Shown: piece by piece, positions 10,845-50,226 of the stretch
Numbering within the stretch: position 1 is the stretch's first letter
How the letters are laid out: each line of letters opens with the position of its first letter
Origin: a virus
IMG/VR virus record: IMGVR_UViG_3300025127_000033
Location: 1-60,242 of that record
Length of the DNA stretch: 60,242 nt
Reading direction: 5' to 3' (one strand)
The notes under the pieces: model-generated
What the model was told of the DNA's origin: nothing
The model's database searches: none
The model's input: only the letters and a program-made list of their open reading frames with translations
Translations under genes and position numbers: made by a program

Positions 10845-11576
10845 ATGAAAGATAAAATATACGTGCTGACGCAAGATAGAGCACCACTAAACTTCTTGTT
10901 GGCTTCAAGACACACACACCGAAGTCCTTTGTTACATTTTGACGGAACAACAAACAGAGCCCTTAGATATGCTCGCAACCAAAAAAGCCCATTCGAAGAT
11001 GAGCAAGATGGCAACGCTATTTTAGAACCAATCATCTTCAAGGATGGCTTTCTACATGTTCAATCTACAAACCCTGTTCTTCAACAATTTATGGAGCTTC
11101 ACCCAGGCAATGGAGAGATATTTATGGAGCTTGATAACGAGAAAAACGCTCAAGATGAGCTAGACGTTATAAATGCCGAGGTAGATGCCTTAATAGCTGC
11201 TAAGACCCTTGATATTCAAACAATGGAGACATTGGGTCGAGTATTCTTAGGCCTTAACACGGATAAAATGTCATCTGCTGAATTGAAGCGAGATGTGATT
11301 TTGTTTGCTAAAAATAACCCTGTTGAGTTCTTGGAGGCATTAGAGGATCCTATGCTTGAGATTCAAGATATAGTAGCTAAGATTTTTGAGGAAGGATTGT
11401 TGTCTATGCGTAACAAGAACAAAGACATTTACTTCAACCTTCCTGGAAACAAAAAGAAACTTACTAGCGTTCCTTATGGAGAAGACCCACAGCACATTGT
11501 GGTATCATTACTTCAGCAGGATGGTGAGCTTTTAAATATGTTCGAAAAACAATTATCTAATAAAAAGGGTGAATAG
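10845..11576 (+). CDS. head-region protein of unknown function
   Basis: 243 residues. The N-terminal third has the segment LLHFDGTTNRALRYARNQKS, then FEDEQDGNAILEPIIFKDG, a pattern I recall from proteins next to capsid genes in Bacteroidetes phages. The middle is Asp/Glu/Ala-rich helix. The C-terminus contains YGEDPQHIVVSLLQQDGE. It may be an internal head protein or assembly factor. It lies between two intrinsic terminators, so it can be expressed as a single-gene unit. Confidence 0.6.
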   Translation: MKDKIYVLTQDRAPLNFLLASRHTHRSPLLHFDGTTNRALRYARNQKSPFEDEQDGNAILEPIIFKDGFLHVQSTNPVLQQFMELHPGNGEIFMELDNEKNAQDELDVINAEVDALIAAKTLDIQTMETLGRVFLGLNTDKMSSAELKRDVILFAKNNPVEFLEALEDPMLEIQDIVAKIFEEGLLSMRNKNKDIYFNLPGNKKKLTSVPYGEDPQHIVVSLLQQDGELLNMFEKQLSNKKGE

Positions 11577-48894: not shown

Positions 48895-48916
48895 GATAAA
48901 TAATTAAATAATTAAA

Positions 48917-48930
48917 GTGCAATATTGCAC
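48917..48930. promoter_or_regulatory. 14-bp perfect palindrome before the 48894 start
   Basis: GTGCAATATTGCAC is a perfect palindrome, 22 nt upstream of the ATG and just after minihelix 2 on the transcript. It could be a dimeric operator or an RNA stem sequestering sequence. Confidence 0.6.
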
Positions 48931-48932
48931 AG

Positions 48933-48976
48933 AACCGTGCTAAAGAGTCGAACTTTAGTAAAGACCGTCCACGGTT
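48933..48976 (-). ncRNA. tRNA-like acceptor/T-arm minihelix 2
   Basis: Minus strand: AACCGTG pairs with CACGGTT (7 bp), an 11-nt linker follows, then CTAAAG/CTTTAG (6 bp) closing a canonical TTCGACT T-loop; total 44 nt, the same as minihelix 1. Acceptor positions AC vs GT and T-stem AGAGG vs TAAAG change together with their partners, so the helix is probably conserved. It forms the 3' end of the structured RNA region. Confidence 0.7.
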
Positions 48977-49491
48977 TTAAGACCTAAGAAATAATTTTCT
49001 TTCGATGCGCTATTCTAAGTAACAGATAAACTTAACCCCTAACTTTCGTGTTGGGTGTTCCTTTTCGGATGTTGCCGCACATTGGCTATCTTGTGAATGA
49101 CTATTAGCGCCGCCTTCATTCGTCACAAGCGCCGTACACTTTCCCATTGATAATTTACTCCTACCTAATTGGCGAAATACTTTTCGTAAATCTTTTCCCT
49201 TTTATCTGTTGGGTTCTCCCCCAACAAACGCAACCATTCAAACCATTTGACATAGCCCTTGCGTGACTATAGACCCGAATGATATCGATAAAGTACTTCA
49301 TATTTCCCAATACCGAAATGCCCTTGCGTGACATATTGGCTTAGATTTCGTTCTCCTAACGTGTACTATTCAAGATGTTAAATAACGATATTACTTTCTC
49401 CATGAATGAGTGGTGAGTAATAACCCTTGTAGATATCAAAAGAAATAATATCAAGATTATTAGAGCACCTTGCCATTCCCACCGCCGTAAT
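48933..49491 (-). ncRNA. putative structured noncoding RNA with tRNA-like 3' end
   Basis: About 560 nt on the minus strand without any credible ORF, directly after a TATCTTTG promoter. Hairpins visible: TGTTGGG/CCCAACA at 49207-49226; a two-part stem CTTGT-GAATGA/TCATTC-ACAAG with a 3-nt bulge at 49090-49129; CCC-AAC/GTT-GGG with one bulged base at 49037-49055; AATAAT/ATTATT at 49444-49461. A 13-nt sequence GTCACGCAAGGGC occurs twice, 65 nt apart (49255-49267 and 49320-49332). The 3' end is minihelix 2. It does not match tmRNA, RNase P or group I intron cores that I know. The exact ends are guesses. Confidence 0.65.
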
Positions 49492-49497
49492 ACAATA

Positions 49498-49505
49498 CAA
49501 AGATA
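49498..49505 (-). promoter_or_regulatory. leftward TAnnTTTG promoter
   Basis: TATCTTTG on the minus strand matches the Bacteroidetes -7 box. A TTG lies 21 nt upstream at the expected -33 region. It points into the structured RNA and the long leftward gene array, and so is probably a main early promoter. Confidence 0.75.
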
Positions 49506-50046
49506 TACGAATACTTTTTACTTATGCAACTATTTTGCAAAAAAAAATTTCAAAAACTATAGGGCAGTCGGTGTAATCCTTTGGCATTCAATCAATTATG
49601 AAGTAAAAAAAATTTCAAAAAAATGCATATATATTGACTGGGGAGAGCAAAAATGTACACGTATACGCATAGAATGTGGTTATACTATGTCGCAAAATGT
49701 GCGAAGAAAAAACGTAAAACTTCGAAGTAAAATTGAATGGAATTTGTGCTGAACTTTTAGGTCATGATTTACGTAAAACTTTGGCGTAAATCTTTGGTGA
49801 AATATGAACGTAAAACGTCGAAGCGTTGCGTATACAAAATTTACAGGACATAGACAAAAAAAGATATTAACATATTAACATAGGGTAGTAATAAAAACGG
49901 CAAAAAATTGACCAAACGTTTGTTTGGTAAAAAGCAAAAACAAGGCAGGGGGTCATTTTATTAATTATAAAAAAATTACAAAACGCTATAGAACCCGAAA
50001 CCTACAGGTGTCTCGTGAATTTTATACTTTTACAAAAACAAAGACA
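49506..50046. other. AT-rich intergenic control/origin candidate region with repeats
   Basis: No gene is credible here. It contains three direct repeats ACGTAAAAC (49712-49720, 49771-49779, 49808-49816) plus a related GCGTAAATC, two long AAAAAAATTTCAAAAA stretches (about 49541 and 49606), a repeated ATATTAACATATTAACAT (about 49864) and a palindrome at 49911-49928. It lies between divergent gene blocks, so it may combine promoters, operator sites and a replication origin. Confidence 0.6.
49911..49928. promoter_or_regulatory. inverted repeat ACCAAAC-GTTT-GTTTGGT
   Basis: A 7-bp inverted repeat with 4-bp spacer that also contains the palindrome CAAACGTTTG. Arms of this kind suit a dimeric repressor or activator. 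It lies upstream of the rightward gene 50047 (the TTG-started longer frame begins within it). Confidence 0.5.
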
Positions 50047-50226
50047 ATGGAAGGATTACGAATTCAGAACGGCAGGTTAATCAATGACAGACCTGATTCA
50101 ATTACAGGGTTGCAGAGAATGGCCCGCATGAAGAAGGCTATTAAGAGACAAGAGAAGATCTCTATGATGGTAGATGCAATGCGTCGCAAAGACATGCTGG
50201 ACGATATTAAATCACTGAGCAAGTAG
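50047..50226 (+). CDS. small basic protein, unknown
   Basis: 59 residues from ATG 50047 (MEGLRIQNGRLINDRPDSIT), then a basic helix (MARMKKAIKRQEKISMMVDA). A TTG-started extension upstream is rejected. Its end overlaps the convergent 50207 gene by 20 nt. Only rightward gene of this intergenic block. Confidence 0.6.
   Translation: MEGLRIQNGRLINDRPDSITGLQRMARMKKAIKRQEKISMMVDAMRRKDMLDDIKSLSK

Follow-up and report, generated by a model that had tools for sequence, protein, structure and literature searches.

Anticodon-less elements of 45 nt, each corresponding to the top half of a tRNA (without anticodon arm and without D stem), recur in phage genomes: besides the two copies of the window (the whole stretch of DNA analysed here, a tailed-phage record of 60,242 bases), more than 100 distinct copies were found in other phages, many of them unrelated, and the analysis shows that the family is real, that its members fold and that they lie at gene junctions. 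From their fold and placement we hold, with moderate confidence, that these elements may act as mRNA punctuation in phage operons, where they would be cut by host RNase P. Furthermore, the gene-free stretch of the window that contains the first of its two copies codes for an RNA of about 520 bases with genuine structure.

The gene-free stretch and its structured RNA

The terminase of the phage displays 72% identity to that of MW202828 and about 44% to those of Flavobacterium elemo phages, and because of this resemblance its host is considered to be probably a member of the Bacteroidota. In the ORF list of the window no credible gene occupies positions 48895-50046: the only listed ORF reaching into them (49924-50226, plus strand) starts with TTG and has an in-frame ATG at 50047, which bears out the 1.15-kb gap described in an earlier, sequence-only reading of this DNA. 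The whole region is present at the matching place of the only close relative, L003 (IMGVR_UViG_3300037961_003462). The features needed below are the following:

49529-49498 (-): putative Bacteroidota-type promoter (TTG 49529-49527, 21 nt, TATCTTTG 49505-49498; from the sequence)
49497-48977 (-): structured non-coding RNA of about 520 nt, its multi-branched fold including long-range helices (RNAalifold with L003; no coding frame; no Rfam match)
49332-49320 (-): first copy of GTCACGCAAGGGC (exact match; conserved in L003)
49267-49255 (-): second copy of GTCACGCAAGGGC (closing helix changed from A-U to G-C in L003)
48976-48932 (-): putative tRNA-like punctuation element 1 (acceptor 48976-48970/48939-48933, linker 48969-48959, T arm 48958-48940, C74-like C 48932; model R2)
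48930-48917 (-): short hairpin GTGCAATATTGCAC immediately past element 1; most family members have one there (sequence and family statistic)
48894-48529 (-): 121-aa gene following element 1, without a family match; its ATG lies 37 nt past the element
48499-48459 (-): two terminator-like hairpins (48499-48482 and 48472-48459) after this gene
48414-48232 (-): short gene of about 60 aa, with a gap of 9 nt between its end and element 2
48222-48178 (-): putative tRNA-like punctuation element 2 (AACCACG UUUGGAAUAAA UAGAGG UUCGAUU CCUCUG CGUGGUU C; model R2)
48177-48158 (-): 8-bp hairpin directly after element 2
48143-47946 (-): gene downstream of element 2, 65 aa; ATG (48143) 34 nt past the element

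Both parts of the leftward promoter-like signal proposed earlier (the box, and the TTG 21 nt upstream of it) are present, and the box is conserved in L003; the frequency of the pattern TTG-N19-22-TANNTTTG lies near chance (5 sites in the window vs 3.7 expected). Leftward transcription of the 520-nt RNA would probably begin at this putative promoter. Upstream of the RNA, an AT-rich stretch (49700-49830, minus strand) carries repeated words such as GTTTTACGT / GACGTTTTACGTT, with similar words in related phages (L004:2260-2370, and L005 and L006 near 11110-11125); these are possible origin or regulator sites.

Along the 520-nt RNA the window and L003 are about 90% identical (53 differences over 521 columns, no indel). 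Their joint RNAalifold structure, which was selected on the same two sequences on which it is scored and draws its support from one relative (L003), comprises 149 pairs, with 12 double-compensatory and 0 broken ones, while the identically refolded controls reached at most 5 double-compensatory pairs in 100 random-substitution alignments (the same number and kind of substitutions as between window and L003, placed at random) and at most 4 in 100 column-shuffle alignments. The joint-fold energy of -115.7 kcal/mol compares with a minimum of about -100 kcal/mol across these 200 control alignments, and four double changes fall within the helix that joins alignment columns 188-199 with 319-331. Folded as a single sequence, the region is barely beyond shuffles (z -1.0), yet the two-sequence fold far exceeds its controls, and the hairpins seen in the sequence-only reading thereby gain comparative backing; its 13-nt repeat GTCACGCAAGGGC does occur exactly twice. 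Compared with L003, the frames within 49497-48977 show mostly nonsynonymous changes (in all but one short frame) and several contain stops; since nonsynonymous changes predominate and stops break several frames in L003, the region is not coding, and a coding function was rejected. The claim of a long structured phage RNA accordingly withstood comparison with L003, in which compensatory changes were found and a conserved ORF was sought, none being credible.

The suggested comparison with GOLLD and ROOL fared worse. Searching Rfam with the region up to E 5 gave no match (two near-matches, to animal RNA families, lie far under the cut-offs and are meaningless), which leaves kinship with GOLLD or ROOL unsupported and sets aside tmRNA, RNase P RNA and intron identities as well; for tmRNA, neither ARAGORN nor Rfam gave a match in the window. 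What likens the 520-nt RNA to GOLLD/ROOL is that it is a large structured phage RNA, and what separates it from them is the missing Rfam match. Further homologues were found neither by blastn (phages, plasmids) nor by DNA patterns or nhmmer, the extra pattern matches being chance hits without wider similarity, and the next-closest phages (L004-L006) share the neighbour gene and lack the RNA. As to its job, our guess is a trans-acting phage RNA (a regulator, decoy or structural RNA).

A family of tRNA-like elements at gene junctions

The plan of the elements consists of a 7-bp acceptor, an 11-nt linker (typically YUUGGARNNNN), a 6-bp T stem with loop UUCGANU, the returning acceptor strand and a C. 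They thus present the top half of a tRNA (a T arm with loop UUCRANY on which a 7-bp acceptor stacks) and no cloverleaf with anticodon arm, and in 27 loci no ARAGORN or tRNA call fell on an element. In IMG/VR a pattern of common letters retrieved 27 stretches (26 of which form the 7-bp acceptor), and a looser pattern combined with a structure filter retrieved 67 copies, distributed over 61 loci, whose helix sequences are fully variable. When only the loop letters TTTGGAA and GTTCGATTC were fixed, 97 distinct contexts were recovered, in which the acceptor pairs at all 7 positions in 74 and at 6 in 11 more, and all 6 T-stem pairs form in 86; both helices are formed in 85 of the 97 (thresholds of at least 6/7 acceptor and at least 5/6 T-stem pairs), and two further contexts have a 12-bp stack and are shifted in register by one base. 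In the unfiltered set (61 sequences, only loop letters fixed) 88.7% of the cells pair, as compared to 45-54% with slid partners, and G-U pairs are scarce (about 2-3% of cells).

Wherever GG had not been selected for, it was found in all distinct linkers (23/23; shuffled 0.54), and we infer that it stands in for the D-loop G18-G19 and docks on the T loop to form an elbow. A C74-like C follows the acceptor in 79/85 unselected copies; the full CCA is present in few copies, only C74 being constant. In one contig (L245, IMGVR_UViG_3300011339_001202, 57-66 kb) CCA stands directly after most array elements, which looks like an encoded tRNA 3' end. The stack from T loop to acceptor base measures 12-13 bp, and in many copies 13 rather than 12. 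No Rfam family covers the element (antisense near-matches to the Plastid-ycf2 5'UTR are far under the cut-off and on the wrong strand), and blastn with single copies against phages returned only T-arm fragments of tRNAs and short matches.

The acceptor/T-arm minihelix noticed earlier before the 48894 gene is indeed present and scores 25.9 bits (E 6.7e-5) with covariance model R2, which was trained without the window or L003 copies; it is, however, not a private 3' end of the long RNA, being one copy of a phage-wide intergenic element whose usual place is between protein genes. At this score, and with linker GACGGUCUUUA, element 1 is a weak family member, its L003 counterpart reaching 37.7 bits (E 1.9e-8, model R2) with different helix sequences and the same fold. 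Element 2, absent from the earlier description, is the stronger copy (62.5 bits, E 6.6e-16, model R2) and is identical in L003. It separates two small protein genes, and element 1 separates the 520-nt RNA from gene 48894-48529. A structure scan detected minihelices at 48976-48932, at 48222-48178 and at both matching L003 places, and 0 in 20 mononucleotide shuffles, and in the window ARAGORN and the Rfam tRNA model call only a tRNA-Arg (52309-52235), leaving elements 1 and 2 uncalled. Between 48976-48905 and L003:11882-11990 element 1 and its hairpin are swapped entirely within surroundings that are about 90% identical, and element 1 of L003 resembles element 2 of both phages; the replacement suggests cassette exchange or gene conversion among elements.

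Across 123 unique copies the end of an upstream ORF lies at most 20 nt away in 104 (median gap 8), and a same-strand ATG-ORF starts within 90 nt downstream in 113 (median 35; antisense control 33). In 71 copies the element is directly followed by a hairpin of 5 bp or more (19 expected), in most cases with the U-run missing. Thirty-one copies are enclosed by a same-strand ORF of 40 or more codons, and these ORFs are taken as mostly spurious. All multi-copy loci (at least 2 copies) keep to a single strand (19/19), and arrays of full or partial copies (10 in a contig of 69 kb, 8 in one of 23 kb) mark successive junctions of small-gene operons, so that tRNA-type folds occur, as in tRNA punctuation, at successive junctions and on the sense strand only. 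One contig is Mycobacterium phage Fowlmouth; it and MrMiyagi, Cuke and Indlulamithi contain 9-11 or more elements per genome, and of the annotated CDS gaps that measure 60 nt or more, 8/11 (Fowlmouth), 10/12 (Cuke) and 11/12 (Indlulamithi) contain an element. A crAss-like Bohxovirus has one element between two annotated genes. In the GenBank records inspected (the cultured mycobacteriophages Fowlmouth, Cuke and Indlulamithi, and the crAss-like phage) the elements are unannotated.

Mycobacterium phage Predator (L345) carries a shorter variant (5-6 bp acceptor, linker AACGGTTNNA), which the family model underscores and whose layout is that of the family: element, hairpin, ribosome-binding site, ATG. 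In L156 (1966-2010), as in many similar contigs, a subfamily of the form AAGGATG...CATCCTT separates the major capsid gene from the head gene that follows it, which suggests the use of elements in late as well as early operons; an assignment of these approximately 6.3-kb contigs to Microviridae proved wrong, L156 encoding a tailed-phage-like major capsid and head-tail proteins. Weak element-like copies (linkers of ACCGGC or CGCGGTC type) were seen in Planctomycetota MAG contigs (L228, L235-L237), perhaps in prophages. None of 197 other sampled Bacteroidota genomes has a copy at E 1e-6 (strict filters), and at this cut-off the element is not a host feature. The closest phages examined for it, elemo and Cellulophaga phages included (L004-L006, MW202828, elemoA, Gundel_1, phi13:2 and phi38:1), are without the element, phi38:1 showing two weak T-arm-only matches; as the family is patchy and absent from the closest phages, it is not essential.

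Possible processing and rival readings

According to the reading that we favour, host RNase P would recognise the elbow and the 12-13-bp coaxial helix and cleave the RNA on the 5' flank of the acceptor, a short way past the stop codon of the upstream gene, while RNase Z or exonucleases may trim the 3' side. The polycistronic phage transcript would in this manner be divided into separate mRNAs, the upstream one gaining a clean 3' end and the downstream one beginning with the folded element and/or the adjacent hairpin, a folded start that should slow its decay. Were RNase Z to cut as well, the adjoining hairpin would become the new 5' end; hairpins at mRNA 5' ends are a known kind of mRNA stabiliser. 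Cutting at element 1 would free the 520-nt RNA from the transcript of gene 48894-48529: given that the element separates the two, the same cut would release the RNA, and its release by host tRNA-processing enzymes is plausible.

RNase P is reported to cut acceptor/T-stem/T-loop model hairpins, in which it measures about 12 bp and uses the elbow and RCCA, to cut the C4 antisense RNA precursor of phages P1/P7, and to participate in processing a polycistronic mRNA (PMC11143913). Among these substrate features the elements possess the 12-13-bp stack and the T loop, and of RCCA only C74 is constant; their N-1 base (U 48%, G 4%) shows a bias that weakly fits RNase P. Since CCA is mostly unencoded and many stacks have 13 bp, cleavage by RNase P may be inefficient or displaced, and these two properties constitute the chief doubts about which enzyme or enzymes act.

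Alternatively, the elements could be tRNA mimics that stay uncut in the mRNA and act on translation at the junction, by slowing ribosomes, by letting them re-start or by attracting a protein that binds the tRNA elbow; adjacent genes would thereby be coupled or uncoupled. We regard this as unlikely: a position about 8 nt past a stop and about 35 nt before a start is within reach of a terminating ribosome, and ribosomal and tRNA-modifying factors likewise bind the features of the elbow (GG, UUCGANU), but the lack of an anticodon arm precludes decoding mimicry, the conserved C74 and the 12-13-bp ruler suit processing enzymes better, and a hairpin directly behind the element fits a new 5' end. It is quite improbable, in our estimation, that the elements protect mRNA 3' ends, with the transcript ending at, or being trimmed to, the tRNA-like fold (perhaps with CCA added) and no internal cleavage by RNase P, in the manner of the tRNA-like structures at the 3' ends of plant viruses. 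The C74-like C of the fold, the CCA encoded in some copies and the hairpins after both window copies would suit such a role; against it, the copies are operon-internal, with the next gene about 35 nt downstream, and most downstream hairpins miss the U-run, from which it follows that the elements are not transcript ends made by termination. A function at the DNA level (as attachment-like sites, as hot spots of recombination or as mobile repeats of tRNA-gene origin) is very improbable, even though integrases often use tRNA 3' ends, G-U pairs are few and element 1 was entirely swapped between the window and L003: the helix sequences vary freely while pairing is kept, which is impossible for a sequence-specific DNA site, the strand and gene-junction bias is strict, and the elbow letters are conserved.

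With respect to the 520-nt RNA itself, a tentative alternative, to which we give appreciable though lesser credence, is that it represents a structured 5' leader (riboregulator) of gene 48894-48529 rather than a separate RNA. Its location between the promoter-like box and this gene speaks for a leader, as do the two hairpins that carry the repeated GTCACGCAAGGGC; however, a punctuation element and a hairpin intervene between the RNA and the gene, and the same type of element separates units in other phages.

Known relatives in kind and biological meaning

The mRNA punctuation that we favour has its nearest likeness in mitochondrial tRNA punctuation (excision by RNase P/RNase Z), in which sense-strand tRNA-type folds stand at nearly every polycistronic junction; the phage elements differ in being 45 nt long, non-decoding, devoid of anticodon arm and D stem and located in DNA phages, and in that their cleavage is inferred. 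With the synthetic RNase P model substrates (e.g. AT1; PMC11143913) they share the helix-loop plan and the C at position 74, whereas they are natural, have an 11-nt GG linker on the 5' side, usually lack the full CCA and often have 13 bp. The tRNA-like structures of plant viruses and the tRNA-like domain of tmRNA likewise mimic the acceptor/T-arm domain; those, however, are 3'-terminal or whole molecules that are aminoacylated, whereas the phage elements are internal, repeated and too short for identity elements outside the acceptor. The SAS/ESAS of cluster K mycobacteriophages (PMC3203893) are also repeated structured sequences just before many start codons, ESAS being 17-bp inverted repeats with a sequence consensus (PMC3203893), and the ESAS phage Angelica gave no match to the element model.

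While tRNA mimicry and tRNA punctuation are known kinds, we found no description of tRNA-like mRNA punctuation in phages in the open-access literature, and anticodon-less punctuation elements in DNA phages are undescribed, to judge by Rfam and the open literature. The processing idea of the sequence-only reading would thus survive in a stronger and more general form, and its GOLLD/ROOL comparison does not. On a broader proposition we are evenly poised: that in phages of several bacterial phyla a dedicated class of anticodon-less mini-tRNAs directs host enzymes of tRNA maturation to cut the polycistronic transcripts, as a viral counterpart, in bacterial cells, of mitochondrial tRNA punctuation, and that in the present phage the same signal matures a large new structured RNA. 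As the element is absent from Rfam and from the inspected GenBank records, phage genomes as annotated miss a common RNA feature; as it occurs in cultured mycobacteriophages, the idea is testable at once. If true, the tRNA-maturation enzymes would constitute a general mRNA-processing machine for many phages, the expression of small-gene phage operons without internal promoters or terminators would be explained, and a portable 45-nt signal for mRNA cutting would be at hand.
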